From an uncultured Algibacter sp. (GTDB lineage Bacteria > Bacteroidota > Bacteroidia > Flavobacteriales > Flavobacteriaceae), in contig NZ_CANLGU010000002.1 of assembly GCF_947490405.1 (NCBI RefSeq), forward strand, positions 620,001-684,000: DNA of 64,000 nt, written 5' to 3'. The translations under genes were made by a program, and so were the position numbers. The notes beneath the pieces were generated by a model. The model saw nothing but the letters and a program-made list of their open reading frames with translations, searched no databases and was not told the origin of the DNA. Every line of letters begins with the position of its first letter. Within the stretch, counting starts at the first letter, position 1. Of the stretch, positions 28,232-56,011 are shown in pieces.

Positions 28232-28321
28232 CCGCGTTAGGGATTGCAGTGGAAAGCCCACAGCCCGACGTAGGAGGTGCGAGGACTTGCAACGTAAAGC
28301 CCGACCCTTGTGGTAACGCCC
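28232..28321 (+). repeat. structured dispersed repeat, copy A
   Basis: One of five full copies of a ~90-bp element. It starts GCGTTAGGGATTGCAG and ends CCGACCCTTGTGGTAACGCC. The ends pair (GCGTTA with TAACGC), and ACC-CTTGT-GGT forms a 3' hairpin. Lies between a terminator and the next gene. Confidence 0.8.
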
Positions 28322-28348
28322 AAATAAAAAATAATTGAGTTCTCAATT

Positions 28349-28380
28349 TCTCCCTTCTGGAGAGGTTAGGAGGGGCTCAT
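28349..28380 (+). repeat. CTCCC...GAGAGGTTAGGAGGGG dispersed repeat
   Basis: A short palindrome followed by TTAGGAGGGGCT; similar copies at 51855 and 55829 and a shorter relative at 33985. Confidence 0.6.
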
Positions 28381-28392
28381 AAACAATATTTT

Positions 28393-29445
28393 ATGAAAAC
28401 TATAAAAGGACCAGCAGTATTTTTAGCGCAATTTGCAGGAAGTGAAGCGCCGTTTAACAGTTTGGATGGCATGTGCAAATGGGCTTCAGATTTAGGATAT
28501 AAAGGGATACAAATACCAACTTGGGAAACGGGATTAATTGACATTGAGAAGGCCGCGGATAGCCAAACGTATTGTGATGATTTGAAAGGAAAAGTGGCGT
28601 CGTACGGCTTGGAAATCACAGAATTATCGACACACTTGCAAGGGCAATTGGTGGCTGTAAACCCTGCGTATAACACCATGTTTGATGGGTTTGCGCCAGA
28701 AGCCGTAAGAGGCAACCCAAAAGCTAGAACGGAATGGGCGATAGATTTTGTAAAAAAATCTGGAACAGCAAGCGCACGTTTGGGCTTAAAGGCGCATGCT
28801 ACGTTTTCGGGAGCGTTAATGTGGCACACCGTGTACCCATGGCCGCAGCGTCCTAACGGATTGGTAGAGATGGGTTTTAAGGAATTGGCGGCGCGTTGGC
28901 TACCTATTTTAAATCATTTTGATGCACAAGGTGTGGATGTGTGTTACGAGATTCATCCTGGAGAGGATTTGCATGATGGGATTTCGTATGAGCGGTTTCT
29001 AGACGCTACAGGAAACCATTCGCGTGCTAATTTGTTGTACGACCCAAGTCATTTTGTATTGCAGCAGTTAGATTATTTAGCGTTTATAGATATTTATCAT
29101 GAGCGTATTAGAGCATTTCATGTTAAGGATGCAGAGTTTAATCCAACGGGTAAACAAGGTGTTTATGGTGGTTATGCCGATTGGAAAGACCGTGCTGGGC
29201 GTTTTAGAAGTTTGGGCGATGGACAAGTAGATTTTAGTGGTATTTTTTCAAAACTGACTAAATACGGGTTAGATTTATGGGCGGTTATGGAATGGGAATG
29301 CTGCATAAAATCTTCAGAACAAGGCGCAAGAGAAGGCGCACCATTTATTCAAAAACATATTATTGAAGCGGCAACACGTAGTTTTGATGATTTTGCTGGT
29401 GGTGCTATTGATGCCGATTATTTAAAAGGTATTTTGGGAATTTAG
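28393..29445 (+). CDS. cytoplasmic TIM-barrel sugar isomerase/epimerase-like protein
   Basis: 350 residues, xylose-isomerase-like barrel without a signal peptide. Metal-site motifs are plain: CYEIHPGEDLHDGISYERF, LLYDPSHFVLQQLDY, AFHVKDAEFNPTGKQGVYGG and WAVMEWECCIKS. Because it lacks the export signal of the relative at 24811, it would act on imported sugars or intermediates in the cytoplasm. It sits between the Gfo/Idh oxidoreductase and a ThuA protein, but a terminator and two repeats separate it from the former. GC content appears higher than in neighbouring genes. Confidence 0.85.
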   Translation: MKTIKGPAVFLAQFAGSEAPFNSLDGMCKWASDLGYKGIQIPTWETGLIDIEKAADSQTYCDDLKGKVASYGLEITELSTHLQGQLVAVNPAYNTMFDGFAPEAVRGNPKARTEWAIDFVKKSGTASARLGLKAHATFSGALMWHTVYPWPQRPNGLVEMGFKELAARWLPILNHFDAQGVDVCYEIHPGEDLHDGISYERFLDATGNHSRANLLYDPSHFVLQQLDYLAFIDIYHERIRAFHVKDAEFNPTGKQGVYGGYADWKDRAGRFRSLGDGQVDFSGIFSKLTKYGLDLWAVMEWECCIKSSEQGAREGAPFIQKHIIEAATRSFDDFAGGAIDADYLKGILGI

Positions 29446-29455
29446 GAACAATTAA

Positions 29456-30457
29456 ATGAAAATAGTAAACTGTAAATCAACTATGTTAAAATCAACATTT
29501 TATTTATTATTGGGATTTGTCTTTTTTGCAAGTATATCCTGCCAGTCTAAAGACGAAAAAATTAAAGTTTTAATTGTTGATGGACAAAATAATCACGTAG
29601 TGTGGCCTAAATCAACAATAATGATGAAGCAATATTTGGAAGAAACTGGTGTGTTTCAAGTTGATATTTCTAGGACTCAATTCTTGAATAAAAGTGAAAC
29701 GTTTAGTGAATGGTTAGCATTAGCTGATGTTCCTAAAGGTGTTGAAGGTAAACCGAAAACGGATCCAGGTTTTAATCCAGATTTTTCAAAATATGATGTT
29801 GTTATTTCTAATTTTGGCTGGCAGGCAGCATCTTGGTCTGAGAAAACAAAGGCGGAATTTGAGACTTATGTGAATAATGGTGGCGGTTTTGTTAGTGTCC
29901 ATGCTGCTGATAATAGTTTCCCAGAATGGAAAGCATATAATAAAATGATTGCTATTGGTGGTTGGGGAAATAGAAATGAAAAAGATGGGCCTTATTTATA
30001 CGTGGATAAAGATAATATGCCTAAAAGAGATTATACTGAAGGGGCTGCAGGTAGTCATGGTCCCAAAGAACCATTTCTTGTGACTACTTACAATAAAGAA
30101 CATCCAATTACAAAAGATATGCCTGATTCATGGATGCACACCAGTGATGAATGTTATGCGTTTTTAAGAGGACCTGCTGAGAATGTAACTATTTTGGCTA
30201 CAGCGGTATCAAGTAAAAAAGCACCAGAGTTAGAACAAAAAGAACCCGTAGTAATGGCCATAGATTATGGTAAAGGCAGAGTTTTTCACACAACTCTTGG
30301 TCACGATACAACATCATTTGAATGTGTTGGTTTTATAACGCTTTTAAGACGAGGCGTTGAATGGGCAGCTACAGGGCAAGTTGTTAATAATGAGATGCCT
30401 GAAGATTTTCCTACTGCTCAAAAAACAGCTTCTAGGTCTTTTAAAGTACAGAAATGA
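29456..30457 (+). CDS. ThuA-domain lipoprotein
   Basis: 333 residues; lipoprotein signal ending FASISCQS (Cys at residue 29 from this start; a second ATG nine codons on would also work). The mature part is a ThuA-like class I glutamine amidotransferase fold: KVLIVDGQNNHVVWPKST, then YDVVISNFGWQAASWSEKT, GGGFVSVHAADNSFPEW, and HTSDECYAF and GRVFHTTLGHD near the C-terminus. ThuA proteins were named from trehalose utilisation and recur beside DUF1080 and Gfo/Idh genes in Bacteroidota. Ten bases after the isomerase gene, so co-transcribed. Biochemical role unknown. Confidence 0.85.
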   Translation: MKIVNCKSTMLKSTFYLLLGFVFFASISCQSKDEKIKVLIVDGQNNHVVWPKSTIMMKQYLEETGVFQVDISRTQFLNKSETFSEWLALADVPKGVEGKPKTDPGFNPDFSKYDVVISNFGWQAASWSEKTKAEFETYVNNGGGFVSVHAADNSFPEWKAYNKMIAIGGWGNRNEKDGPYLYVDKDNMPKRDYTEGAAGSHGPKEPFLVTTYNKEHPITKDMPDSWMHTSDECYAFLRGPAENVTILATAVSSKKAPELEQKEPVVMAIDYGKGRVFHTTLGHDTTSFECVGFITLLRRGVEWAATGQVVNNEMPEDFPTAQKTASRSFKVQK

Positions 30458-30609
30458 TTATAGGAACTGCCATTTTTATTAACTTTCAAAGTAAAATTTG
30501 CTAAAAATCCGTTATAAAATTAAGTTTTTTGAAATAAAAGCATGAAATAATAGAAATTTCTATAATTGTTGTTAAAAACTCTATGATTTTTAATCATTTA
30601 AAAAAATAA

Positions 30610-30617
30610 TATCTTAG
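30610..30617 (+). promoter_or_regulatory. candidate arg operon -7 box
   Basis: TATCTTAG is one base off TAnnTTTG. It ends 9 bases before the GTG of the first leader frame, the same close spacing as at the ilv leader. No clear -33 box is visible. Confidence 0.35.
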
Positions 30618-30626
30618 TTTTACACT

Positions 30627-30698
30627 GTGAAAAATTTAAAAAATAAAATACGTTGTTCTACTCCCGGTTTGCCCGTGCGCAATCGCCGCCGCTTCTAA
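30627..30698 (+). CDS. arg operon leader peptide 1 (Arg-rich)
   Basis: A 23-codon frame from GTG: MKNLKNKIRCSTPGLPVR then NRRRF and stop. It ends CGC AAT CGC CGC CGC TTC, four arginines in six codons, with GC-rich codons unusual in this genome. An alternative start at the internal GTG (30675) would give the 7-residue MRNRRRF. Its place upstream of the arginine operon fits a regulatory leader sensing charged tRNA-Arg. No strong terminator follows it directly, so the mechanism is open. Confidence 0.6.
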   Translation: MKNLKNKIRCSTPGLPVRNRRRF

Positions 30699-30811
30699 TG
30701 CTCCAATATTAGTAAAAACCAAACGTAATTTTAATTTTTCAAAAAGTGTCTAAAAATTTTCTCATAGTATTTCAAAATAAAGTTAATTCGATAATTAACA
30801 ACAGTTCTATT

Positions 30812-30841
30812 ATGCGCCGTAAATTTCCACGTCGCCCGTAA
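30812..30841 (+). CDS. arg operon leader peptide 2 (MRRKFPRRP)
   Basis: A nine-codon frame from ATG, MRRKFPRRP, with four arginines and a lysine. It lies 20 bases upstream of a terminator-like hairpin and 83 bases upstream of the first enzyme gene of the arginine operon. The frame can also fold on itself (GCGCCGT with ACGTCGC). Two Arg-rich mini-frames in one leader make chance unlikely, but translation is not shown. Confidence 0.6.
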   Translation: MRRKFPRRP

Positions 30842-30860
30842 GGGTATGCTTCAATTTATT

Positions 30861-30887
30861 GAACTAGGTGAGTCCAGTTCAGCTTTT
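30861..30887 (+). terminator. candidate arg attenuator hairpin
   Basis: GAACTAGG pairs with CCAGTTC (one bulged A), loop TGAGT, then CTTTT. TTCAA (30850-30854) can pair with TTGAA (30859-30863), overlapping the 5' arm, an alternative fold. The T run is short, so termination strength is uncertain. A GTG at 30868 lies inside this hairpin. Confidence 0.45.
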
Positions 30888-30924
30888 AAAAAATAAAATA
30901 ATTGACAATAATACAAGTAAGGAA

Positions 30925-31557
30925 ATGAAGGTTGTAATAGCCGATAAATCACATATAAAATACGCTAATGCCATTTGCGAAACCATTGAAGCTTCTGCTC
31001 AGGTTAGAGGTACTGGTATAGCGAAGCGTACGCCTGAATATATATCTGCAAAGATTGAAAATGGTAATGCTGTTATTGCTCTTGATGGTGATACATTTGC
31101 AGGGTTTTGCTATATAGAAAAATGGGGACATGGTAAATTTGTAGCCAATTCTGGTTTAATTGTTCATCCAGATTACAGAGGTAAAGGTCTTGCTAAAAAA
31201 ATTAAGCATAAAGTTTTCGAGCATTCACGACATAAATTTCCAGATGCCAAAGTGTTTAGTATTACAACAGGTTTACCTGTTATGAAAATGAATAGCGATT
31301 TGGGTTATAAACCTGTTACATTTTCTGAACTTACTGACGATCAAACGTTTTGGGATGGTTGCCAAACTTGTAAAAATTATGATGTATTAACGCGTACAAA
31401 CAGAAAAATGTGTTTGTGTACAGGTATGCTTTACGATCCTAAAAAAGTTGGTAAGGAAGAAGAAGATACCAAAGAGGTAAAGGAGAAAGTATTTAAAAGA
31501 TTAAAAAGAATAAAACAAGCATTGTTTTTAAGAAAAGATAAAAAAGTAAAAAAATGA
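30925..31557 (+). CDS. GNAT N-acyltransferase, first gene of arg operon
   Basis: 210 residues from the ATG at 30925 (MKVVIADKSHIKYANAIC); a GTG 19 codons upstream lies in the attenuator hairpin. The GNAT fold is seen in SGLIVHPDYRGKGLAKKIKHKVF (acetyl-CoA loop RGKGLA). Residues about 145-170 carry a cysteine cluster, GCQTCKNYDVLTRTNRKMCLCTGMLYDP (pattern CxxC...CxC), unusual for GNATs and possibly metal-binding. The tail is lysine-rich. As head of the operon and in the absence of argA or argJ here, it is the best candidate for the glutamate N-acylating step. Its stop overlaps the argG start (ATGA). Confidence 0.8.
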   Translation: MKVVIADKSHIKYANAICETIEASAQVRGTGIAKRTPEYISAKIENGNAVIALDGDTFAGFCYIEKWGHGKFVANSGLIVHPDYRGKGLAKKIKHKVFEHSRHKFPDAKVFSITTGLPVMKMNSDLGYKPVTFSELTDDQTFWDGCQTCKNYDVLTRTNRKMCLCTGMLYDPKKVGKEEEDTKEVKEKVFKRLKRIKQALFLRKDKKVKK

Positions 31558-32729
31558 AAAAGTTAGTAATAGCCTATAGTGGTGGATTAGATACCTCATA
31601 TTGTGCGGTAAGTTTATCAAAAGAATATGATGTACATGCGGTAAGTGTAAACACTGGAGGTTTTACACAAGAAGAAATTAAACATATAGAAATCAACGCC
31701 TATAAAATGGGGGTTTCTACATATAAAAATATTGATGCGGTTTCTACATTTTATCAAAAAGTAGTAAAGTATTTAATATTTGGTAATGTTTTAAAAAACA
31801 GTACGTATCCACTCTCTGTAAGCGCAGAGCGTATTATTCAAGCTATTGAAATTATAGAATACGCTAAAAGTATTGGTGCAGAATATATAGCTCATGGTAG
31901 TACGGGTGCTGGAAATGACCAAGTGCGTTTTGATATGATTTTTCAAACCTTGGCTCCAGGGATTGAAATTATTACACCTATTAGAGATCAAAAATTAACA
32001 AGACAAGAAGAAATTGACTATTTAAAGTCTGAAGGTATTGATATGCCTTGGGAAAAATCTAAATACTCTGTAAACAAAGGGCTTTGGGGAACAAGTGTTG
32101 GTGGTGTTGAGACTTTAAAGTCTGAAAAGCCTCTACCAAGTGAAGCGTATCCATCGCAGTTAGAAAAAGAAGGTGAAGAAAAAGTTACCTTGACTTTTGA
32201 AAACGGTGAATTTGTAGCACTAAATGGAGACGCTAATAAACCAGAAGTGAATATTGAAAAATTAAATGATATAGCTTCCGCCTATGCTATTGGTAGAGAT
32301 ATTCATGTAGGCGATACTATTGTTGGTACTAAGGGGCGTGTTGGTTTTGAAGCTGCTGCTGCCTTAATTACAGTAAAAGCACATCATTTATTAGAGAAGC
32401 ATACACTTACGAAATGGCAATTACAGCATAAAGAATATGTGTCTAGTTTTTATGGCATGCATTTACATGAAGGTCAATATTTAGATCCAGTGATGAGAGA
32501 TATTGAAGCGTTTTTACAAAGTTCTCAAAAGATGGTTTCGGGTAATGTAGTGGTGAGTTTAAAGCCTTACCATTTTTCTCTAGATGGTATTGTTTCAGAC
32601 CATGATTTAATGTCGAGTAAGTTTAGTACTTATGGTGAAGAAAATAAAGCTTGGACAGCTGATGACGCTAAAGGATTTATTAAAATTCTAGGAAACCAGA
32701 ATAAAATATACAAACAAGTAAACTCGTAA
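31554..32729 (+). CDS. argG: argininosuccinate synthase
   Basis: Joins citrulline and aspartate with ATP. 391 residues, starting MKKLVIAYSGGLDTSYCAVS with the N-type ATP pyrophosphatase loop AYSGGLDTS. Later YIAHGSTGAGNDQVRF, IITPIRDQKLTRQEEIDYL and SVNKGLWGTSVGGVE are family signatures. The start overlaps the stop of the GNAT gene by four bases (ATGA), showing translational coupling. A 125-base gap with a dispersed repeat separates it from argC. Confidence 0.95.
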   Translation: MKKLVIAYSGGLDTSYCAVSLSKEYDVHAVSVNTGGFTQEEIKHIEINAYKMGVSTYKNIDAVSTFYQKVVKYLIFGNVLKNSTYPLSVSAERIIQAIEIIEYAKSIGAEYIAHGSTGAGNDQVRFDMIFQTLAPGIEIITPIRDQKLTRQEEIDYLKSEGIDMPWEKSKYSVNKGLWGTSVGGVETLKSEKPLPSEAYPSQLEKEGEEKVTLTFENGEFVALNGDANKPEVNIEKLNDIASAYAIGRDIHVGDTIVGTKGRVGFEAAAALITVKAHHLLEKHTLTKWQLQHKEYVSSFYGMHLHEGQYLDPVMRDIEAFLQSSQKMVSGNVVVSLKPYHFSLDGIVSDHDLMSSKFSTYGEENKAWTADDAKGFIKILGNQNKIYKQVNS

Positions 32730-32756
32730 TGGGTCTAAAATAAATATAAAATGAAA

Positions 32757-32850
32757 TTATTTTAGTCATTTCGACGATAGGAGAAATCACATAATTTGAG
32801 AAAGGTTATTTTATGAGTTGTCTCAATCGTTCCTTATTTCGACATGACAC
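32757..32850. repeat. TCATTTCGACGA...GAGAAATCAC repeat pair
   Basis: Between argG and argC, TCATTTCGACGATAGGAGAAATC and, facing it, ATTTCGACATGACA about 60 bases later form a loosely inverted pair (shown in parts: ATTTCGACGA, GGAGAAAT, ATTTCGACATGACA). This wording is common in flavobacterial spacers; function is unknown. Confidence 0.4.
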
Positions 32851-32854
32851 ATAA

Positions 32855-33850
32855 ATGAATAAAAGGATGGGAAATATAAAAGTTGGAATTATTGGGGGTG
32901 CGGGTTATACCGCAGGCGAATTAATTAGATTACTAATTAATCATCCTGAAGCTGAGATAGATTTTGTTTTTAGTACAAGTAACGCTGGAAACAAAATTAG
33001 TAAGGTGCACCAAGACTTAGTGGGGAGTTTAGAGTTGAAATTTACCGATACGGTAAACCCTAATATTGATGTGTTGTTTTTATGCTTAGGGCATGGTAAT
33101 TCTGTGAAATTTTTGTCTGCAAACACGTTTTCTGATGCTACTAAAATTATAGATTTAGGTAACGATTTTAGACTGGAAGCAGATAAAATTTTTGAAGGTA
33201 AAACGTTTGTGTATGGTTTGCCAGAATTGAATAAAGCGGCTATTACAAAGGCTAAATATATTGCAAACCCTGGGTGTTTTGCTACAGCGATTCAATTGGG
33301 GGTATTGCCATTGGCAGATGCTGGTTTGATAAAAAGAGATGTGCATATTAATGCGGTAACTGGTGCTACTGGCGCTGGAACATCATTATCTGCTACAACG
33401 CATTATACGTGGCGAGATAATAATTTTTCGTATTACAAACCCTTTACGCACCAGCATTTAGGTGAAATCAATCAGTCTGTGAATCAATTACAATCTGATT
33501 TTTCTTCTGAAATTATTTTTATGCCAAATAGGGGTAATTTTTCCAGAGGTATTTTTGCAACAATTTATACTGATTTTGAGGGCGATGTTGAAGATGCTAA
33601 AGCGATTTATAAATCGTTTTACAAGGATGCGAAGTTTACCTTTGTGTCACATGAGTTTTTACATATGAAACAAGTAGTGAATACCAATAAATGTTTGGTG
33701 CATCTACATAAGCATAATGGTAAATTATTAATTACAAGTACTATTGATAATTTATTGAAAGGCGCATCTGGACAAGCGGTACAGAACATGAATTTGATGT
33801 TTGGTTTAGAAGAAACGACTGGACTAGGATTAAAAGGGACTTACTTTTAA
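32855..33850 (+). CDS. argC: N-acyl-gamma-glutamyl-phosphate reductase
   Basis: NADPH-dependent reduction of N-acyl-glutamyl phosphate. 331 residues from the first ATG; the ATG at 32867 (MGNIKVGIIGGAGYTAG) is an equally likely start. The dinucleotide-binding GIIGGAGYTAGELIRLL, active-site cysteine in YIANPGCFATAIQLG and VTGATGAGTSLSATTHY are all present. Followed by a dispersed structured repeat and then proC. Confidence 0.95.
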   Translation: MNKRMGNIKVGIIGGAGYTAGELIRLLINHPEAEIDFVFSTSNAGNKISKVHQDLVGSLELKFTDTVNPNIDVLFLCLGHGNSVKFLSANTFSDATKIIDLGNDFRLEADKIFEGKTFVYGLPELNKAAITKAKYIANPGCFATAIQLGVLPLADAGLIKRDVHINAVTGATGAGTSLSATTHYTWRDNNFSYYKPFTHQHLGEINQSVNQLQSDFSSEIIFMPNRGNFSRGIFATIYTDFEGDVEDAKAIYKSFYKDAKFTFVSHEFLHMKQVVNTNKCLVHLHKHNGKLLITSTIDNLLKGASGQAVQNMNLMFGLEETTGLGLKGTYF

Positions 33851-33875
33851 AAATTTGAGTAAGCACATAAGAGTG

Positions 33876-33961
33876 GCGCGTTAGGGATTGCAGAGGAAAG
33901 CCCACAGCGACGCAGGAGCGAGGACTTGTAACGTAAAGCCCGACCCCTTGTGGGTAACGCC
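33876..33961 (+). repeat. structured dispersed repeat, copy B
   Basis: Same element as copy A, here inside the arginine operon between argC and proC. Ends pair GCGTTA/TAACGC; the 3' hairpin is one pair longer (ACCC-CTTGT-GGGT). The middle segment is shorter than in copy A. Confidence 0.8.
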
Positions 33962-33984
33962 ATAAAAAAAGAATAATAAAATAA

Positions 33985-34010
33985 GATTCCCTCCTTTGAG
34001 GGGATGACAA
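33985..34010 (+). repeat. short CCCTCC/GAGGGG palindrome
   Basis: CCCTCCTTTGAGGGG followed by ATGACAAAAG. It appears to combine the CCCCTCC repeat with the GGGAATGAC end of the CATTCCC repeat. Lies just before proC. Confidence 0.4.
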
Positions 34011-34022
34011 AAGTATTTAGAC

Positions 34023-34817
34023 ATGAAAATAGCCATTATTGGAACTGGGAATTTGGGGAGTTCGATTGCGAAAGGACTTATTAGTAACAAGTCGTTTAGC
34101 TCATTATACCTAAGTGATAGAAATACTAAGGCGGTGGATGCCTTTGAAACTCTTGAAAATGTAGAAGTTACTAGCGATAATGTTTTGGCGATAGAGCAAT
34201 CGGATATCGTTATTTTTGCATTACAACCTAAACATATTGATGGTGTTTTAGAAAGCGTAAAATCTAAAATAAGCCATAACCATATTATAATGTCTGTTGC
34301 AGCTGGTGTAGAGATAAATAGGATAGAAAATATTTTAGGCGATGACAAAAATATAATAAGGGTTATGCCTAATACAGCAATTTCTATAGGAAAATCTATG
34401 ACTTGTATTGCTGCTAATGAAACAGGGAAAGATAAGGTGCCTGTTGCAGAAGGGATTTTTGGGCAATTGGGAACAACTATGGTAATTCCTGAAGATTTAG
34501 TGCAGGCTGCTACCGTGATTTGTGCTAGTGGTATTGCTTTTTGGATGCGTTTGGTTAGAGCTACAACACAAGGCGCGATTCAATTAGGTTTTGAAGCTGA
34601 AGAGGCACATGAATTGGCTGTACAAACATGTTTTGGTTCAGCTAGCTTATTAATAGAATCTGGTAGACACCCCGAGCAGGAAATTGATAGAGTAACCACA
34701 CCAAGTGGATGCACTATTGAAGGCTTAAATGAAATGGAGCACCAAGGATTAAGCTCTGCTTTAATACAAGGGATTGTGGCTTCGTTTGAAAAAATCAATC
34801 AATTAAAAACTAAATAA
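34023..34817 (+). CDS. proC: pyrroline-5-carboxylate reductase
   Basis: Last step of proline synthesis, NAD(P)H-dependent. 264 residues, opening MKIAIIGTGNLGSSIAKGLI, then IFALQPKHIDGVLES, RVMPNTAISIGKSMTCIA and, near the C-terminus, VTTPSGCTIEGLNEMEHQG, the ProC signature region. Two bases separate it from argD, so the genes are tightly coupled. Having proC within the arginine operon is a Flavobacteriia habit. Confidence 0.94.
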   Translation: MKIAIIGTGNLGSSIAKGLISNKSFSSLYLSDRNTKAVDAFETLENVEVTSDNVLAIEQSDIVIFALQPKHIDGVLESVKSKISHNHIIMSVAAGVEINRIENILGDDKNIIRVMPNTAISIGKSMTCIAANETGKDKVPVAEGIFGQLGTTMVIPEDLVQAATVICASGIAFWMRLVRATTQGAIQLGFEAEEAHELAVQTCFGSASLLIESGRHPEQEIDRVTTPSGCTIEGLNEMEHQGLSSALIQGIVASFEKINQLKTK

Positions 34818-34818
34818 A

Positions 34819-35964: not shown

Positions 35965-35972
35965 TAATAAAC

Positions 35973-37166: not shown

Positions 37167-37207
37167 ATCCATAATAAGTATTTTGAGAAATAGCTTGTGA
37201 TAACAAG

Positions 37208-47203: not shown

Positions 47204-47209
47204 TTTTTT

Positions 47210-47306
47210 AGGGCGCAACCCACAAGGGGTCGGGCTTTCCGTTAATAGTTTTGGCTCGATGCACGCCTCGCCAAAAGCTGCCACTGCAATCCCTTGCGCG
47301 GGGCCT
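47210..47306 (-). repeat. structured dispersed repeat, copy D (inverted)
   Basis: The element on the minus strand. The closing stem is GCGCAA with TTGCGC in place of GCGTTA with TAACGC, so two base pairs changed on both sides at once. The 3' hairpin is ACCC-CTTGT-GGGT. The middle forms AGCTTTTGGC with GCCAAAACT. Confidence 0.8.
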
Positions 47307-47353
47307 GTTTGCTTGGGTTAGTACTTTTACTGTTGTAAAGTGGTTGTTTGTGG

Positions 47354-47491
47354 AGGTTCGTTTAACGGTTGCGTATATGGAAAGTTGCGTGTTTGTGTGC
47401 GAGGATTTTCCGAAGGAAAATCAGAAGCTAGCAAACAAATCAACTTACATTGATTAGGCACAAAATAGCAATTTTTTATATACAATGTTAC
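47354..47491. repeat. gene-end palindromic element (first of two long copies)
   Basis: Starts GGTTCGTTTAACGGTTGCG, contains the hairpin GATTTTCC-GAA-GGAAAATC (47404-47422) and ends GTATAT-complementary ATATACAATGTTACC. Shares its opening words with the elements at 8799 and 48606. It lies at the 3' end of the minus-strand gene that ends at 47492. Confidence 0.6.
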
Positions 47492-48088: not shown

Positions 48089-48107
48089 ATTGTAGGTAAT
48101 GGATTAC

Positions 48108-48364
48108 CGGATATGCGCCGTTCTTTAATGGCTTATATCCGCAGTTAAACGAAGGTAGCTGAAAATTTTTACAAAATCAAGTGTGTCATTCGCAGTTTTC
48201 TATAACTAGCTACTTGCAATTACTAAGAAAACAAAAATAGTATCCCAAAAAATTTGCAGATTAACTTTTCTATACGGTATTCATAATCCCTTGCGCGGGT
48301 GTGTTTAATTTAGTCTGTGTTTTTGAGGACTTAGAGTGGTTTATTTGAGGAGTTCGTTTAACGG
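48108..48364 (-). repeat. 257-bp promoter repeat, tandem unit 1
   Basis: Direct repeat of the next unit at exactly 257-base spacing. On the minus strand it carries TTGA-N19-TACCTTCG (-7 at 48150-48157), then GTTTAACTGCGGATATAAGCC. Its left arm (ATTACCGGATAT) differs from unit 2 where it meets the unknown gene. It also contains a truncated end of the structured repeat (CCCTTGCGCGGGTGT). Confidence 0.8.
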
Positions 48365-48408
48365 CGGATATGCGCCGTTCTTTAATGGCTTATATCCGCC
48401 GTTAAACG
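48355..48408. repeat. 54-bp palindrome with GTTTAAC/GTTAAAC ends
   Basis: Arms CGTTTAACGGCGGATAT (48355-48371) and ATATCCGCCGTTAAACG (48392-48408) are exact reverse complements, 17 bp, around a 20-base loop that can pair further (GCCGTT with AATGGC). The end boxes GTTTAAC and GTTAAAC fit the RYYYAAC and GTTRRRY boxes of integron attC sites. It could equally be the 5'-leader hairpin of the promoter repeat. Confidence 0.7.
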
Positions 48409-48621
48409 AAGGTAGCTGAAAATTTTTACAAAATCAAGTGCGTTATTCGCAGTTTTCTATAACTAGCTACTTGCAATTACTAAGAAAACAAAAATAGTAT
48501 CCCAAAAAATTTGCAGATTAACTTTTCTATACGGTATTCGTAATCCCTTGCGCAGGTGTATTTACTTGGGTTAGTGCTTTTGTGGACTTAGAGTTGTTTA
48601 TTTGAGGAGTTCGTTTAACGG
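48365..48621 (-). repeat. 257-bp promoter repeat, tandem unit 2
   Basis: Second unit of the tandem pair, about nine in ten bases identical to unit 1 by eye. Contains the same TACCTTCG promoter, the conserved block ending TATACGGTATT, a truncated structured-repeat end (CCCTTGCGCAGGTGT) and GAGGAGTTCGTTTAACGG. Confidence 0.8.
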
Positions 48622-48750: not shown

Positions 48751-48757
48751 TTTTTTA

Positions 48758-49219: not shown

Positions 49220-49221
49220 TT

Positions 49222-49986
49222 TTATTTTGTTTTGATGGTATCTGTTTTTTTAGTTGATTGTTCTTTCAAGTTATTTTTGAGTTCAGAATTTTCTTTTTCC
49301 AATATAATTATTTTGTCCTCTAAATTTTGGTTTGAATTTTCGATGTTGTTTAACTTTTCTCGTAATTCAAATTCGTCATCCATATTTGATTTTTCTTGGA
49401 TTAATGTTCCAAAATAAAAAGCAAAACCAATAATTGCGAAAATTGAACCAAAAAGTGCAACAACTTGTCCAATAGGAAGATTTTTTAAAAGTCCGAAAAG
49501 TTTATTTATCGTGATTTCTGACAATTGTACTGTATTTTCTTTGAGGTTTATTACTTCTTTGTTTTTGTCATTTAGTTCTGATAGAATTTGGTTTCTATCT
49601 TCTAAAATTACGTTCGCACTCGAAATGGCTTCTGAAAGTTGTTTTTTTAACCCTCGATTTTGATTTTCAAAGTATTTCTCATTTTCTTCGTGTTGAATAT
49701 TTTGAATTTCGGAATACTCTTTAATTTGTTCTATATATGATTCTAAATATTGATTTGCTTGTTTTTTTCCTTTTTCAAGTACTTCATATTTCACATCAGA
49801 AAATGGGGTGTCAAAATTAATTTGACTTATTTGTAGCCACTTTGTATCAAAACCATCAAATATTTCTCTTAAATCATTTTCCGTTTTTCCTTTCCAGACT
49901 TTGGGTTCAAAGTCAAACGTTCCGATTTCAGATTTTCTTTTTTTTAAAATTTCAATTGCTTTATCTGTTGGTATTTTTAATTGCAT
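49222..49986 (-). CDS. coiled-coil membrane protein of unknown function
   Basis: 254 residues. An N-terminal polar part (about 1-65) precedes a long coiled coil (about 70-155, heptad-like with EIQNIQHEENEKYFENQNRGL), one transmembrane helix at about 170-195 (GQVVALFGSIFAIIGFAFYFG) and a second coiled coil (about 205-245, NIENSNQNLEDKIIILEKEN). No catalytic motif. First gene of a two-gene unit, with the promoter repeat 45 bases upstream. The topology suggests a membrane-anchored sensor or scaffold, but that is a guess. Confidence 0.7.
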   Translation of the reverse strand: MQLKIPTDKAIEILKKRKSEIGTFDFEPKVWKGKTENDLREIFDGFDTKWLQISQINFDTPFSDVKYEVLEKGKKQANQYLESYIEQIKEYSEIQNIQHEENEKYFENQNRGLKKQLSEAISSANVILEDRNQILSELNDKNKEVINLKENTVQLSEITINKLFGLLKNLPIGQVVALFGSIFAIIGFAFYFGTLIQEKSNMDDEFELREKLNNIENSNQNLEDKIIILEKENSELKNNLKEQSTKKTDTIKTK

Positions 49987-50031
49987 ATAGAAATTATCTT
50001 GGTTTGGTCAACATTACTTACAACGAATTAA

Positions 50032-50205
50032 CGGATATGTGCCGTTGGAATGGCTTATATCCGCCGTTAAACGAAGGTAGCTGAAAATTTTTACAAAATC
50101 AAGTGTGTCATTCGCAGTTTTCTATAACTAGCAACTTGCAATTACTAAGAAAACAAAAATAGTATCCCAAAAAATTTGCAGATTAACTTTTCTATACGAT
50201 ATTTG
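50032..50205 (-). repeat. promoter repeat, third copy (~174 bp)
   Basis: Matches the promoter half of the 257-bp units up to TCTATACGATATT. Minus-strand -7 box TACCTTCG at 50072-50079 drives the gene at 49986. Hairpin arms ATATCCGCCGTTAAACG and ATTAACGGATAT flank a shortened loop. Its far end abuts the leader of the metY transcript. Confidence 0.75.
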
Positions 50206-50233
50206 CAGTCATAAAGTTCAAACACTTATTGAA

Positions 50234-50358
50234 ATGTTATCAAGAAAGGTGGAGGGATTAGACCCCGTGAAGCCTTAGCAACCCTTTAAACTTATTAAAG
50301 AAGGTGCTAAATTCTACTTAAACACCGATTCATTTATCGGCGTTTGGATAGATAACCC
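50234..50358 (+). promoter_or_regulatory. SAM-I (S-box) riboswitch upstream of metY
   Basis: The S-box core is plain: GTTATCAAGAAAGGTGGAGG, GATTAGACCCCGTGAAGCC, TTAGCAACC, AAGGTGCTAAATTC, and closing GATAAC. P1 pairs GTTATC (50236-50241) with GATAAC (50351-50356). It would turn off metY and the genes after it when SAM is high. Confidence 0.95.
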
Positions 50359-50363
50359 CAAAG

Positions 50364-50386
50364 AAATTACTTTTTGTAATTTTAAT
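50364..50386 (+). terminator. possible SAM-I expression-platform hairpin
   Basis: AAATTAC and GTAATTT pair around a T-rich loop just after P1 of the riboswitch, followed by T residues. The stem is short and AU-only apart from one pair, so this is tentative. Confidence 0.35.
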
Positions 50387-50462
50387 AATTCTTTATAACA
50401 TTTTTCTATTAAGTCAAAAAAGTACTCTGAAATGCTTTTGCATTGAAGTTTCGATTGAATTT

Positions 50463-50487
50463 GTCATTCTCGCGAACGCGGGAATCT
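50463..50487. repeat. short CATTCTCGCG...CGCGGGAAT palindrome
   Basis: Member of the CATTCCYGCG family lying about 30 bases before metY. Confidence 0.55.
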
Positions 50488-50516
50488 TTAAGTTTAACTA
50501 AATAAGATATAGAAAA

Positions 50517-51791
50517 ATGAGCGATCAAAAATTAGCAACAAACGCATTACACGCAGGTCATGATGTAACAGCAAACGGAGGAGCAAGAGCAGTTCCTATT
50601 TACCAAACTACATCGTATGTATTTAACAATTCAGACCACGCAGCAAACCTTTTCTCTTTACAAGAATTAGGGTTTATTTACACACGTTTAAACAACCCAA
50701 CCAACCAAATTTTACAAGAGCGTTTAGCAGCTGTAGAAGGTGGTATTGGTGCCGTAGTTTTTGCTTCAGGAACAGCAGCTATTGCCACAGGGTTATTAAC
50801 ATTATTAAAGGCAGGTGACCATGTTGTGGCGTCAAGTAGTTTATACGGTGGTACGTATAATTTATTAAGTGTTACGCTTCCAAGATTGGGTATTACAACA
50901 ACATTTGTGGATGCTTCAAACCCTGATAATTTCAAAGATGCTGTGCAAGATAATACTAGAGCATTTTTTGTGGAGTCTTTAGGGAATCCAAAACTTGATG
51001 TTTTAGATTTAGAAGCTATTGCTGCACATTCTAAAGCGGCAGAAGTGCCTTTTATTGTTGATAATACGGTGGCAACACCAGCATTATTAAATCCAATTAA
51101 ACACGGGGCAAACATTGTTATACACTCATTAACTAAATATATTGGCGGACAAGGCACATCTTTAGGCGGCGCCATTATTGACGCTGGTACTTTCAATTGG
51201 GCAAACGGGAAATTCCCAGAATTTACTGAGCCATCTGCGGGTTACCACGGTTTAAAATACCATGAAGTTTTAGGTGCAGCATCTTACACATTCAAATTAA
51301 TTTTAGAAGGTTTAAGAGATTTTGGTGGCGCTATGAGTCCAACAAATGCATTCAACATCATTCAAGGGTTAGAAACATTACCAGTTAGAATTAAGCAACA
51401 CAGTGAAAACGCTTTAGAATTGGCAAAATGGTTAGAAGCACAAGACGAAGTGGCTTGGGTAAATTATCCTGGGTTAGAGAGTAGTAAATACAATGCTTTG
51501 GCTAAGAAATATTTACCAAACGGACAAAGTGGTATTGTAACCTTTGGACATAAAGGTGGATTCGATGCTGCTAAAACCATTGCAGATGAAACTCAAATAT
51601 TCTCTTTATTAGCCAATATTGGAGATACTAAATCATTGATTATTCACCCATCAAGTACCACACACCAACAATTGGATGAAGCAGAACAAGCTTCGGCAGG
51701 TGTGTCTACAGACTTAATACGTTTGTCTGTTGGTATTGAAGATATTGAAGATTTAAAAGCCGATTTAAAACAAGCATTTGCTAAGATATAA
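50517..51791 (+). CDS. metY: O-acetylhomoserine sulfhydrylase (MetY)
   Basis: PLP enzyme that makes homocysteine from O-acetylhomoserine and sulfide. 424 residues, the longer MetY subtype within the Cys/Met metabolism family. Motifs: QTTSYVFNNSDHAANLF, FIYTRLNNPTNQILQERLA, the PLP lysine in HSLTKYIGGQGTSLGG and SLLANIGDTKSLIIHPSSTTH. The insertion after the lysine (GKFPEFTEPSAGYHGLKYHEV) marks MetY as distinct from MetZ/MetB. Directly under the SAM-I riboswitch; followed by a terminator hairpin and the MetX fusion gene. Confidence 0.94.
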   Translation: MSDQKLATNALHAGHDVTANGGARAVPIYQTTSYVFNNSDHAANLFSLQELGFIYTRLNNPTNQILQERLAAVEGGIGAVVFASGTAAIATGLLTLLKAGDHVVASSSLYGGTYNLLSVTLPRLGITTTFVDASNPDNFKDAVQDNTRAFFVESLGNPKLDVLDLEAIAAHSKAAEVPFIVDNTVATPALLNPIKHGANIVIHSLTKYIGGQGTSLGGAIIDAGTFNWANGKFPEFTEPSAGYHGLKYHEVLGAASYTFKLILEGLRDFGGAMSPTNAFNIIQGLETLPVRIKQHSENALELAKWLEAQDEVAWVNYPGLESSKYNALAKKYLPNGQSGIVTFGHKGGFDAAKTIADETQIFSLLANIGDTKSLIIHPSSTTHQQLDEAEQASAGVSTDLIRLSVGIEDIEDLKADLKQAFAKI

Positions 51792-51803
51792 TTGATTGAA
51801 ACA

Positions 51804-51836
51804 AGACCTGTCAGGTTTTTAAAACCTGACAGGTTT
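51804..51836 (+). terminator. CCTGTCAGG hairpin terminator after metY
   Basis: ACCTGTCAGGTTTT and its reverse complement around one T (51806-51834). Nearly identical to the hairpin at 28134. The T run after it is short, so partial readthrough into the next gene is possible. Confidence 0.7.
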
Positions 51837-51854
51837 AAAAATAACACGAGTTAG

Positions 51855-51889
51855 TATTCCTCTCTTTCGGGGAGGTTAGGAGGGGCTTT
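51855..51889 (+). repeat. CCTCTC...GGGGAGGTTAGGAGGGG repeat abutting a start codon
   Basis: Palindrome followed by TTAGGAGGGGCTTT, ending on the base before the ATG at 51890. AGGAGG is placed 6 bases before that ATG, so the repeat gives this gene a Shine-Dalgarno-like site. Confidence 0.6.
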
Positions 51890-54800
51890 ATGAAACACGA
51901 ATTACAACATATTACCATTGCCAATTACATTACTGAAAGTGGTGCGCGTAACCCTGAAATTAAATTAAGCTACCAAGTTTTTGGTAAGGCTTTGGGAAGT
52001 GCGCCCATTGTGTTGGTTAATCATGCATTGACAGGAAATAGTGAGGTGGCTGGTGCCAACGGATGGTGGAAAGATTTAATTGGTGATGATAAGGTTATTG
52101 ATACCAAATTGTATTCGGTGTTGGCGTTTAATATTCCAGGGAACGGTTTTGATGGTTTTGTGATTGATAATTATAAAGATTTTGTGGCACGCGATGTGGC
52201 AAAGTTATTTTTACAAGGCTTAAAAGCGCTAGGTACTGGCAAATTATTCGCCACAATTGGCGGCTCTTTAGGCGGTGGCATTGCTTGGGAAATGGCGGTG
52301 TTACAACCTGATTTCACAGAGCATTTGGTAGTTGTGGCTACCGATTGGAAATCTACCGATTGGTTGATTGCCAACTGCCAAATACAAGAACAATTCTTAT
52401 TAAACTCTAAGCATCCTGTACACGATGCGCGTATGCATGCTATGTTGTGTTACCGCACGCCAGAGTCGTTTAAAGAACGTTTTAAGCGTTCTAAAAATGA
52501 TGATTTAGAAATTTTTAATGTCGAAAGTTGGTTGTTGCATCATGGAAAAAAATTGCAGGAACGGTTTCAGTTATCAGCTTATAAATTGATGAATCAGTTA
52601 TTAAAGTCTATTGATGTGACTAAAGGTCGTTCTAGTAACTTTAATGTGCTTGAAAATATAGAAGCCAAAATCCATATTGTAGGTGTAGATTCTGATTTAT
52701 TTTTTACTGCTGAAGAAAACCGTGAAACCCATAAACAGTTGGCCTTAACACATCCTAATGTGACGTATAACGAAATACATTCGGTGCACGGGCACGATGC
52801 ATTTTTAATGGAATACGATCAACTTGAAAAAATTGTAGAAGGCATTTTTGTACCACATTCTAAAAGAAAACCAATGAAGGTATTAAAATTTGGAGGTAAA
52901 TCTTTAGCCAACGGAAAAGGCTTAGAAACAGTACTTTCAATTATAAAAAATAAAGTGGAAGCTGGCGATAGAATTTCTGTTGTGGTTTCTGCAAGAGGTT
53001 CAGCAACAGATGCTTTAGATGCTATTTTGAATAAAGCGCTAAAAGGAGCGTCGTATCAAGAGGATTTAGAAGCGTTTAAAGCATATCAAATTGAGCCTTT
53101 AAAAACCATAGATTTTTCTGAAGAATTTTCAGTTTTAGATAAGTTGTTTGAAGGAGTTAGCCTGTTACGAGATTACAGTAAAAAAACCAAGGATAATATA
53201 TTGGCGCAAGGCGAATTGTTATCTATCAAACTGATTGCAAATTTATTGAATGCGCATGGAGTAAAAGCTCAAGCAACTGACGCGCGAGAACTTATAAAAA
53301 CGGATGAATCTTTTGGCAATGCACAACCATTATCAAAAATTTCAAAAGAAAATACACAGGCTTATTTTAATGCAAATAAAGGTGTGGTTAATGTAGTGGC
53401 TGGTTTTATAGCGTCTAATTTAAAGAATGAAACAACCACTTTAGGACGTAACGGTAGTAATTATACTGCTGCTTTAATCGCAAATTTTTTAGATGCTGAA
53501 GAATTACAAAACTATACGCATGTTAGTGGAATTTATACCGCAGACCCTGGATTGGTTCCTGATGCAAAACAAATTAGAGAATTATCTTTTAGTGAAGCTA
53601 ATGAACTAGCCAATTTTGGAACGTCTGTGTTACATGCTAAAACCATTATTCCTTTAGTTGAGAAAAATATCAACTTACGTATTTTAAATACGTTTAATGC
53701 TGATGACGAGGGGACGCTAATTACTGCAAGACCAAGCACTAAAGAAGTGACGTCGTTATCTATTTTAGATAATGTGGCCTTGTTGAATTTAGAAGGGCGC
53801 GGTTTACTCGGAAAAATTGGTGTAGATGCCCGAATTTTTGGAGCGTTAAGCAAATACGGTATTAGCGTGAGCATTGTGTCTCAGGGTTCTTCAGAAAGAG
53901 GCATCGGATTGATTATTGATGCAGACCAAGCTACCCAAGCAGTTATTGCTTTAGAGCGAGAGTTTGAAAGCGATTTCTATTCGCAAGATGTGAATAAAAT
54001 TGATGTTATTGATGATGTTGCGGTTATTTCGATTATTGGAATTGAGTTAAGTTCGTTTCATAAACCGTTTAATGCTTTAATTAAAAACCAGATTACACCC
54101 TTATTATTTAATAATACGGTTACGGGCAAGAATGTGAGTTTGGTGGTGAAGAAATCGCAATTACACAAAGCAGTAAACGTAGTTCATGGTGAAGTTTTCG
54201 GGATTTCTAAAAAGATAAATATTGCCATTTTTGGACACGGTGGTGTTGGTGGCGCATTGATTAATCAGATATTAAAATCGAAAGACGATATTGAAAAGCG
54301 TAAAGGCATCAATTTGAATGTGTTTGCCATTGCGAATTCTAGAAAATTGGTATTGGATAAAAATGGCGCGAATGCCAATTGGGAAACTGCTATTGCTTCG
54401 AGTACGTATAAGAGTTCGATTGAAGATGTTATTACTTATGCAAAAAATCATCATTTAGAGAATTTGATAGCGGTAGATAATACGGCGAGTTCGGAGTTTT
54501 ATACCAATTATATTCCGTTAGTTGAAGCGGGATTCGATTTGGTATCGTCCAACAAAATAGCGAATACCATTTCGCATGCGTTTTATACTGAATTACGAGT
54601 ACAATTAGCCAAAAACAACAAACAGTATTTATACGAAACAACGGTTGGTGCGGGTTTACCGTTAATTGATACGATTAAATTATTGCACGAATCTGGAGAA
54701 AATATCACACGAATTAGAGGTGTGTTTTCGGGGACGTTGAGTTATTTGTTTAATAATTTTTCTGTGGAAGACAAGCCGTTTAGTGCCATTATTCAAGAAA

Positions 54801-55288
54801 CGGTGGATAAAGGATTTACAGAACCCGACCCGCGAGAAGATTTCTCTGGAAACGACGTGGCGAGAAAACTGTTAATTCTTGCAAGAGAATTAGATTTACA
54901 AAATGAGTTTGAAGATGTTGAAGTGTTGAATTTGATTCCTGAGGCGTATAGAGATATTTCGGTGGAAGACTTTTTGAGTCAGTTAGAGGTTTTAGATGCG
55001 CAATATCAGAAGTTGAAAGACGAGCAAAAGGAAGGGCATGTGCTAAGATATGTTGGTGATTTATCGGGAGATTTATCACAAGATAAAGGGAATCTGGAAG
55101 TAAAATTAGTATCTATTCCAGAGGATAGTACGTTGGGCCACGTAAAAGGCTCTGATGCTATTTTTGAAATATTTACCGAAAGTTATGGCGAGCAACCTAT
55201 AGTAATTCAAGGAGCGGGCGCTGGTGCTGAGGTTACCGCACGCGGAGTTTTTGGTGATATTTTGCGGTTGAGTAAGCATATTAATTAG
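51890..55288 (+). CDS. thrA: MetX-aspartokinase-homoserine dehydrogenase triple fusion
   Basis: 1132 residues in three parts. Residues 1-325: homoserine O-acetyltransferase-like alpha/beta hydrolase, with LVNHALTGNSEVAGANGWW, the nucleophile motif TIGGSLGGGIAWE, the acid in VGVDSDLFFTAEENRE and the histidine in SVHGHDAFLME. Residues 329-about 770: aspartokinase (starts MKVLKFGGKSLANGKG) with ACT domains. Residues about 775-1132: homoserine dehydrogenase (IAIFGHGGVGGALINQIL, DNTASSEFYTNY, VGAGLPLIDTIKLL). The kinase part departs from consensus: KFGGKS for KFGGTS, GRNGSNYTAA for GRNGSDYTAA, THVSGIYT for TDVDGVYT. So it can turn semialdehyde into acetylhomoserine, but the kinase activity is doubtful. 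Confidence 0.9.
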   Translation: MKHELQHITIANYITESGARNPEIKLSYQVFGKALGSAPIVLVNHALTGNSEVAGANGWWKDLIGDDKVIDTKLYSVLAFNIPGNGFDGFVIDNYKDFVARDVAKLFLQGLKALGTGKLFATIGGSLGGGIAWEMAVLQPDFTEHLVVVATDWKSTDWLIANCQIQEQFLLNSKHPVHDARMHAMLCYRTPESFKERFKRSKNDDLEIFNVESWLLHHGKKLQERFQLSAYKLMNQLLKSIDVTKGRSSNFNVLENIEAKIHIVGVDSDLFFTAEENRETHKQLALTHPNVTYNEIHSVHGHDAFLMEYDQLEKIVEGIFVPHSKRKPMKVLKFGGKSLANGKGLETVLSIIKNKVEAGDRISVVVSARGSATDALDAILNKALKGASYQEDLEAFKAYQIEPLKTIDFSEEFSVLDKLFEGVSLLRDYSKKTKDNILAQGELLSIKLIANLLNAHGVKAQATDARELIKTDESFGNAQPLSKISKENTQAYFNANKGVVNVVAGFIASNLKNETTTLGRNGSNYTAALIANFLDAEELQNYTHVSGIYTADPGLVPDAKQIRELSFSEANELANFGTSVLHAKTIIPLVEKNINLRILNTFNADDEGTLITARPSTKEVTSLSILDNVALLNLEGRGLLGKIGVDARIFGALSKYGISVSIVSQGSSERGIGLIIDADQATQAVIALEREFESDFYSQDVNKIDVIDDVAVISIIGIELSSFHKPFNALIKNQITPLLFNNTVTGKNVSLVVKKSQLHKAVNVVHGEVFGISKKINIAIFGHGGVGGALINQILKSKDDIEKRKGINLNVFAIANSRKLVLDKNGANANWETAIASSTYKSSIEDVITYAKNHHLENLIAVDNTASSEFYTNYIPLVEAGFDLVSSNKIANTISHAFYTELRVQLAKNNKQYLYETTVGAGLPLIDTIKLLHESGENITRIRGVFSGTLSYLFNNFSVEDKPFSAIIQETVDKGFTEPDPREDFSGNDVARKLLILARELDLQNEFEDVEVLNLIPEAYRDISVEDFLSQLEVLDAQYQKLKDEQKEGHVLRYVGDLSGDLSQDKGNLEVKLVSIPEDSTLGHVKGSDAIFEIFTESYGEQPIVIQGAGAGAEVTARGVFGDILRLSKHIN

Positions 55289-55296
55289 GTAAAAAT

Positions 55297-55758
55297 ATGA
55301 AAAAAGCAACCTTTGGATTAATTTTAATATTTCTCACTTTGTTTTCTTCTTGTAATAAAGAGAAAATTTTGGAACTAAATACTCGAATCGCTGAGCTTGA
55401 AATTCAAAATAAAAAACTCGTTGATTCGATTTCTAAATCGGCGTATAATAAAGTTTTAAATTCGAATATTATCGGGCTGACTGCTAAGTCTGAGTTTATT
55501 ATACACGAAGAAAGTGAAGTGAAATTCTGTTTTAACTATCTTGAAAAGTTGCCGAATTATGATGTTTATACAACTACTAGGGATGGTAAACTTGATAAGC
55601 TGATTTACGAAAGCCTCACAGATAATGAATTCATATATAATTTTGTTCCAGAAAAAGTAGGAAAGTACAATATTAAGTTGGTAGCTGTTTTTAAAATTAA
55701 TAACAAAGAAAATGAAGAAATACAGGTTCCAACAAATTTATATGTTAGCGTAAAATAA
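55297..55758 (+). CDS. small lipoprotein of unknown function
   Basis: 153 residues. Lipoprotein signal MKKATFGLILIFLTLFSSC (Cys at 19), a short coiled coil at about 24-50 (ILELNTRIAELEIQNKKLVDS), then a beta-rich domain ending in KYNIKLVAVF and a C-terminal strand, possibly Ig-like. It is 8 bases after the fusion gene, so co-transcribed, but has no clear link to methionine. Not recognised. Confidence 0.7.
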   Translation: MKKATFGLILIFLTLFSSCNKEKILELNTRIAELEIQNKKLVDSISKSAYNKVLNSNIIGLTAKSEFIIHEESEVKFCFNYLEKLPNYDVYTTTRDGKLDKLIYESLTDNEFIYNFVPEKVGKYNIKLVAVFKINNKENEEIQVPTNLYVSVK

Positions 55759-55772
55759 TCAAAAGATTAAAT

Positions 55773-55787
55773 AGACCTGACAGGTCT
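55773..55787. repeat. short CCTGACAGG palindrome
   Basis: AGACCTG-A-CAGGTCT, the two outer ends of the larger hairpins at 28134 and 51804 with the middle missing. Confidence 0.5.
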
Positions 55788-55828
55788 TATTGAAATCTCG
55801 CGTTTTAAATAAATTAAAGCGTATGAGT

Positions 55829-55860
55829 GCCCCTCCTTGGAGGGGTTAGGGGTGGGTTAA
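55829..55860 (+). repeat. CCCCTCCTTGGAGGGG repeat
   Basis: Palindrome CCCCTCC TT GGAGGGG followed by TTAGGGGTGGG, same family as 28349 and 51855. Confidence 0.6.
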
Positions 55861-55917
55861 TAGAACTAAAGCTTACAAAAAATAAGCTTAGGTTTAAAAC
55901 TAAACCCCAGCAAACAA

Positions 55918-56011
55918 GTGCATTAGGGATTGCAGAGGAAAGCCCACAGCCCGACGAAGGAGGTGCGAGGACTTGGAACGGAAAGCCCGACCCGATAGGG
56001 AAATGCTCAAA
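55918..56011 (+). repeat. structured dispersed repeat, copy E
   Basis: Closing stem GCATT with AATGC, where copies A-C have GCGTT with AACGC: a third compensated pair. The 3' hairpin is CCC-GATA-GGG, with a changed loop. Lies just upstream of metZ. Confidence 0.8.

Follow-up and report, generated by a model that had tools for sequence, protein, structure and literature searches.

A dispersed hairpin repeat in an Algibacter window

The DNA analyzed here is a 64,000-nt window, to which all positions below refer, of an Algibacter genome of 3.69 Mb in 23 contigs (the own genome), and it contains five full copies, A to E, of a non-coding hairpin element. Read 5' to 3', the element comprises a loose TTGGCAAAYA-kind box, a closing stem P1 (GCGTTA/TAACGC), an inner arm P2, a small hairpin P3 (CCC..GGG, enclosed by P1) and the word CAAAT. 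P2 runs GGG-A-TT-GNA-GY-GNA-head and is closed by AA-G-CCC, with GNA-type 3x3 internal loops and a head that varies. We distinguished five head types (X, Y, Z, W and V); in the window, copies A, B, C and E are of type Z and copy D is of type W. The five copies were located with a covariance model, R1, built from 22 copies; they are listed here with their neighboring features and with bit scores for R1 and for the Rfam family Flavo-1 (RF01705).

28219-28232, plus strand: 5' box (TTGGCAAACACACC) directly 5' of P1 of copy A (by eye, among 95 upstream flanks)
28233-28320, plus strand: copy A, Z-type arm and P3, 5' strand of P1 at 28234-28239; 75.9 bits R1, 32.2 RF01705
28321-28325, plus strand: 3' boundary CAAAT directly after the closing stem of copy A, at the same place in most copies
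33877-33961, plus strand: copy B, in the argC/proC gap, Z-type arm, with an upstream box of the GCACATAAGAGTGG kind in its 5' flank; 76 bits R1, 26.2 RF01705
42958-43051, plus strand: copy C, 3' of argH, Z-type arm; 74.4 bits R1, 35.3 RF01705
47212-47300, minus strand: copy D, W-type arm (AGCTTTTGGC..GCCAAAACT), P1 GCGCAA/TTGCGC; 72.2 bits R1, 34.2 RF01705
48285-48297, minus strand: truncated element 5' end (GCGCAA plus GGGATT), with the P1 variant of copy D
48542-48554, minus strand: a further truncated 5' end, within the duplicate of the tandem
55919-56007, plus strand: copy E, Z-type arm, P1 GCATT/AATGC; 64.4 bits R1, 29.4 RF01705

The R1 matches start at most 2 nt from the five starts given in a preliminary description of this DNA, and both truncated 5' ends that it had noticed were found again; these (GCGCA(A)GGGATT, minus strand) sit within a 257-nt tandem repeat. 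Its reading of the closing stem also holds: copies A, B and C share GCGTTA/TAACGC, D has GCGCAA/TTGCGC and E has GCATT/AATGC, and three P1 pairs are altered on both sides among the window copies. The 3' hairpin changes in step on both sides among the five copies, and the word reported to recur in each half corresponds to the two similar words of which P2 consists. It placed all copies between genes; B lies between argC and proC and C after argH, and a longer open frame (55827-57203) overlaps E, although the conserved protein is readable from 56046.

At the 3' boundary, the most frequent letters in 95 own copies are C (79 copies), A (80), A (91), A (93) and T (54), and conservation fades within about 11 nt. 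Loose relatives of the TTGGCAAACACACC box lie upstream of many copies (by eye in the 95 flanks); the box is absent from the column profile because its spacing to P1 varies. The arm of copy C carries an additional apical hairpin (CTTTTGCGC..GCGCA), and some apical loops in the family hold long inserts. Among frames that seemed to lack an arm (32 + 101 rows, by eye), five places retain a single word, and the rest have V-type arms or parts of Z-type arms. Separately, the apical loops in L005, L024, L026, L041 (2617-2774), L115 and L116 were seen by eye to house another palindromic repeat, of the CGTCATTGCGAGGAG..CGTGGCAATCT kind.

Pairing is maintained by double-sided, nearly pure Watson-Crick change

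To quantify pairing across the family, we aligned 95 own copies (alignment A4: 94 of the 119 R1 matches in the own genome at E<=1, plus one further copy in L041). The structure is paired in 88.6% of cells, compared with 29-50% for slid structures, and the inverted ends formed by P1 are paired in 98.1% of cells, as they are in 98.6% of cells in the congener G007. Double changes were observed at 18 of the 24 pairs, with 249 double-changed against 7 one-sided cells, and 0 of 500 shuffles reached the observed covariation score. G007 is 86.2% paired overall, again with 18 of 24 pairs double-changed (206 double-changed against 16 one-sided cells). By comparison, 31 SAM (S-adenosylmethionine) riboswitch sequences from related genomes gave 26 one-sided and 26 double-sided cells. 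The preliminary description had argued from five copies that the folded form is under selection and had named a lack of significant covariation in a larger alignment as a finding that would speak against it; we found instead that double-sided compensation maintains the pairing in two genomes.

These changes involve very few G-U pairs, which make up 10 of 2004 standard cells in the own genome (0.5%) and 20 of about 1931 in G007 (1.0%, counted by hand), compared with 35 of 750 in the 31 SAM riboswitches (4.7%) and 13 of 196 in nine distinct tRNAs of related genomes (6.6%). Fisher tests on cells gave 1.6e-12 for the own genome against the riboswitches and 7.8e-9 against the tRNAs, values that are descriptive only, the cells not being independent. 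A MAFFT alignment (A3) agrees, with 3 G-T among 497 standard cells. At the element base (13 pairs), we counted 1184 Watson-Crick, 4 G-T, 2 A-C and 43 other cells; G-T is thus barely favored over A-C, as expected were neither strand's RNA selected.

The family is an extended relative of Flavo-1

The preliminary description had suspected kinship with Flavo-1, a motif described by Weinberg et al. 2010 (PMC2864571). In an Rfam scan of the window, no family reached its cut-off at any of the five copies. At a permissive threshold, however, all five match Flavo-1 over its full length (model positions 1-76), scoring 26.2-35.3 bits, under the curated cut-off of 42, and all five have the Flavo-1 consensus stem with two 3x3 loops. 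At E<=10, the own genome gives 97 matches to Flavo-1, 44 of them above the cut-off; the weak ones may include chance hits, because 10 of 14 control genomes also give matches at this threshold, none of them exceeding the cut-off. Among the 30 best matches in the genome, all above the cut-off, 25 share the window copies' outer frame and the other 5, judged by eye, lack it, indicating that the window copies are low-scoring members of a continuous population of the extended form. The suspicion is therefore borne out by full-length sub-threshold matches together with genome-mates of the same extended form above the cut-off, and model building, genome search and Rfam comparison together reveal a family of >100 copies in the own genome, related to RF01705. 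The window elements are an extended relative of Flavo-1 in which an outer stem (P1) and a 3' hairpin (P3) surround the Flavo-1 arm (P2): the arm is common to both, whereas the window copies score lower and add P1, P3 and further head types. The motif family is already known; in the open-licence literature searched, we found no paper on Flavo-1 function or on a flavobacterial repeat of such form, and none describing the outer frame, the G-U deficit or the arm replacement documented below.

Copies are abundant in the genus and lie in either orientation to genes

At E<=1e-4, R1 has matches in 26 of 40 genomes (own included), with 39-107 copies per genome in ten genus members and 0-24 elsewhere; RF01705 has matches in 24 of the same 40 (own included). 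A class-wide scan with RF01705, in which only 29 candidates per genome were scored under stricter filters, found matches at E<=1e-7 in 35 of 149 genomes (own included), of which 11 have one match each. G007, which is 99% complete, has 97 copies by R1 at E<=1e-4 and 118 matches in another search; alignment A7 holds 97 G007 rows from those 118 matches, five being dropped as duplicate or truncated. Alignments A8 and A9 have 51 and 60 rows. G002 and G005 give 101 and 107 matches at E<=1e-4; we considered only those at E<=1e-10 (51 and 85), of which 51 and 59 were retrieved.

The family is a high-copy, mostly intergenic palindrome. Calling flanking genes with a crude open reading frame (ORF) caller, we found that the two neighbors of 95 own copies are oriented ++ in 26 cases, -- in 22, +- in 25 and -+ in 21, with one undetermined; for 93 G007 copies the corresponding counts are 31, 22, 23 and 16, again with one undetermined. 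Such near-random orientation is not what would be expected of a leader, a terminator or a 3' untranslated region element. In both genomes, where the gene downstream of an element is antisense, its stop codon is often 0-15 nt from the element's 3' end.

Folded as RNA, the five window copies are not convincingly better than their shuffles (z from +0.62 to -1.06). In all nine copies compared, the z of the DNA fold is lower than that of the RNA fold, with only one DNA value below -2; in this comparison, the ends of the five window copies differ by a few nucleotides.

Frames persist at shared sites while arms are replaced

To follow individual elements across species, we examined sites shared between genomes. 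At the site of copy A, an element is present in Algibacter L156 and L157 and in Mariniflexile L159, and a decayed form is visible by eye in Jejuia L150; L153, L154, L155 and L160 have the site without the element. The site of copy B is occupied in G007 (L291), Flavivirga L154 and Algibacter L156, holds a degenerate form in L157 (by eye) and is without the element in L150, L153, L155, L159 and L160. The site of copy E holds a near-identical element in G007 (L340). Overall, 45 of the 95 own copies have a G007 counterpart with both flanks matching and in the same orientation (among 95 distinct matches); one-to-one matching against 92 G007 copies leaves 44 shared sites. Three cross-matches that suggested inverted shared sites were dismissed, at least one genome having two neighboring elements at each locus.

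At these shared sites, the frame tends to be retained: across the 45 own/G007 sites, 266 of 270 P1 cells are identical, and a rare P1 is retained unchanged at 11 of 13 shared sites, as it is at 11 of 13 in the close pair G002/G005. Heads at the same site, by contrast, differ between species. The arm type is replaced at 15 of 44 own/G007 sites, at 1 of 28 in G002/G005 and at 8 of 14, 10 of 16, 5 of 15 and 6 of 16 in the remaining four genome pairs, one of 17 G007/G005 pairs being dropped for an unclassified head and all other pairs complete. Replacement is partial, since the head type is retained at 29 of 45 own/G007 sites against 18.7 expected by random pairing. For 33 of the 45, the own arm is nearer to another own copy than to its ortholog. 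At one site, the own genome and G008 have a Y arm, G002 and G007 a Z arm and G005 a V arm; G001, matched by its downstream flank only, has a single word.

The extent of the replaced tract can be read from pair identities. At replaced own/G007 sites, P1 identity stays at 0.93-1.0, identity at the second TT/AA pair is 0.47 (0.97 at kept sites) and P2b identity is 0.67 and 0.27 (0.90 and 0.69 at kept sites), indicating that the replaced tract starts near the arm base; in more distant pairs, the contrast becomes blurred. Within P1, the four distant pairs, which share branches, show 3, 3, 5 and 6 double Watson-Crick changes, with 0, 0, 1 and 0 one-sided G-T states and 2, 4, 4 and 2 one-sided mismatches. 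Compensation is thus not confined to differences between subfamilies but also happens in place.

A proposed folded DNA strand with exchangeable arms

In this family, pairing is kept by double-sided, nearly pure Watson-Crick change, elements lie in either orientation to genes, and frames persist in site and orientation while arms swap. We favor, with modest confidence, the interpretation that it is a dispersed non-coding DNA repeat, an extended Flavo-1 relative, in which a folded DNA strand is selected and the inner arm is replaced within a persistent frame. The selected form would be a hairpin in one DNA strand, single-stranded during replication or extruded, and some protein would recognize this folded strand. 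Arms might be copied between dispersed elements through short-tract conversion or template switching, with copying that would start near the base of the arm. The family may be a long-lived selfish repeat. On this interpretation the constraint acts at the level of DNA, in contrast to the small RNA (sRNA) class that Rfam assigns to Flavo-1.

Several observations weigh against this interpretation. The cells are not independent, and alignments A4 and A7-A9 were fitted to R1, itself trained on few G-U pairs; the SAM structure used for comparison was hand-drawn by us, and the tRNA sample comprises nine sequences. Over the whole of A4, A-C exceeds G-T (56 against 10), because unlike heads are forced into common columns, and only the element base is clean. 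In the close pair G002/G005, there are 6 one-sided G-T states, compared with 9 changes from Watson-Crick to mismatch and 2 double changes; G-T states arise and are tolerated for a time, yet do not seem to last. The DNA plus-strand fold of the window copies is unconvincing (z from -0.10 to -1.86). In G007, sense copies are slightly in excess (31 of 53 codirectional cases), and the crude ORF caller places 14 of 95 own copies under an open frame of at least 70 aa. Rare P1 stems are identical at only 3 of 6, 3 of 6, 4 of 10 and 2 of 8 sites in the four more distant pairs, which also show low P2 identity even where the arm type is the same. Frames, too, are nearest another own copy in 24 of 45 cases (ortholog 12, tie 9), because the common frame is so frequent. 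Finally, no recombinase or transposase was tied to the element.

The alternative under which Rfam files Flavo-1 (type 'Gene; sRNA') is a structured RNA, either a small RNA or an mRNA element, whose G-U scarcity would stem from composition or recent copying. It would be consistent with the strong compensatory covariation in the own genome and G007, and the purine-rich GNA loops of the plus strand would suit sheared G-A pairs. We nevertheless consider it unlikely: G-U pairs are scarce relative to SAM riboswitches and tRNAs, orientation to genes is near random in both genomes, the RNA fold is poor, and the 39-107 dispersed copies per genus genome, patchy elsewhere, vary between species in presence and arm. 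The first half of the suggestion made in the preliminary description, a structured RNA or a hairpin repeat, is not supported, on the same grounds. In a transcriptome study of Flavobacterium psychrophilum (Guerin et al. 2021, PMC9723704), several 5' transcribed regions overlap Flavo-1 hits, but hits are seemingly sense or antisense to transcribed regions indistinctly, many lie outside them, and no consistent relation to transcripts is reported. For the arm replacement itself, loss of an element followed by re-insertion of another at a preferred spot appears quite unlikely. Sites without the element do exist in relatives, and the upstream 60 nt are less alike at unlike-head sites (0.655 versus 0.787; downstream, 0.819 versus 0.844). 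However, rare P1 variants are kept alongside a changed arm, both in own/G007 (GCGCTA and GCGCAA) and in other pairs (GCATTA), and a long P3 specific to one site (L098/L313) is likewise kept.

Two known classes of mobile repeat were also weighed. An element of the repetitive extragenic palindromic (REP) or REPIN type, whose single-stranded hairpin is mobilized by a Y1 (RAYT) transposase or as in CGTC REPs, would share with the present family its high copy number, mostly intergenic position, imperfect hairpin, genus-level amplification and modular heads. REP and REPIN sequences are likewise imperfect palindromes in high copy, whose stems have alternative complementary residues and whose loops are modular. 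PMC3733652 mentions CGTC REPs in Bacteroidetes that apparently lack a dedicated transposase, so that an absent transposase alone does not exclude the class; the RepRanger table (PMC12306157) gives thousands of predicted REPs in two Flavobacterium genomes. Membership of this class is improbable in our view. Neither of two high-copy congeners, G006 and G007, has a Y1_Tnp match at E<=0.001, and the own genome has one broken fragment; the flank profile of 95 copies (60 nt upstream, 40 nt downstream) shows only CAAAT and no GTAG or CGTC tag, although a tag at variable distance could escape it. GT pairing, often seen in GTAG REP stems according to PMC3733652, is scarce here, and the present family has the order P1-P2-P3 and swaps its arm within a kept frame. 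A miniature inverted-repeat transposable element (MITE), with P1 as the short terminal inverted repeat of a cut-and-paste transposon, is very improbable. Like bacterial MITEs and small mobile repeats, the elements are short, non-coding and dispersed with inverted ends (GCGTTA/TAACGC), and related species have sites with and without them. Against this, no target-site duplication was detected above permutation in 95 copies or in 301 non-independent copies of four genomes, P1 varies in sequence between sites yet stays paired, and the part that changes is the arm and not the ends.

A broader form of the favored interpretation can be put forward only tentatively, as possible but doubtful: Flavo-1 as a whole could be a widespread DNA hairpin system of Bacteroidota and not an RNA family, with fixed frames at chromosomal sites serving as docks and arms swapped as whole units among dispersed copies through an undescribed single-strand-DNA process that would give both concerted arm evolution and near-pure Watson-Crick covariation. 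If the DNA interpretation is true, a catalogued RNA family needs reclassing, covariation alone is insufficient to call an RNA, and the G-U deficit is a simple sorter for other computationally found motifs. Replacement of arms within frames would offer a trackable case of short-tract exchange between dispersed bacterial hairpins.

Candidate enzymes, integron sites and other repeats in the window

We looked for genes that might accompany the elements. L116 and L115 form a near-identical inverted pair with 3.2 kb between them; among the ORFs listed there, no transposase was recognized by eye, open frames at the locus ends not being listed; the gene between the pair in L041 is a 285-aa ORF in which no transposase was recognized by eye and for which no family search was made. 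In congeners, Y1_Tnp domain matches do occur in very long open frames (1074-1302 aa), at L266 (G003), L268 (G005), L269 (G002) and L270 (G004).

The consensus of integron attC sites opens 5' with RYYYAAC and closes 3' with GTTRRRY. Judged by reading, the elements, whose ends are GCGTTA... and ...TAACGC, show the reverse order and do not match this consensus. A second repeat family in the window (47301-47480, 48108-48621 and 50030-50286) consists of imperfect long palindromes that end in CGTTAAACGAACCT and are reminiscent of attC-like sites. Two copies of this CGTTAAACGAACCT-ended family make the 257-nt tandem, and about 10 of the 95 own elements, counted by eye, have a CGTTAAACGAACCT-like word roughly 60 nt upstream.

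The only Rfam families to exceed their cut-offs in the window are the SAM and SAM-II riboswitches, two SAM riboswitch classes together. The SAM riboswitch (50234-50358, plus strand, 71 bits) lies upstream of an ORF at 50517-51791, and its start is overlapped by a third copy of the 257-nt repeat, 69% identical; the SAM-II riboswitch is at 11631-11712 on the minus strand (52.3 bits). A short palindrome, AGACCTGTCAGGT..ACCTGACAGGTCT, is repeated between genes at 28134-28164, 51804-51834 and 55764-55787.

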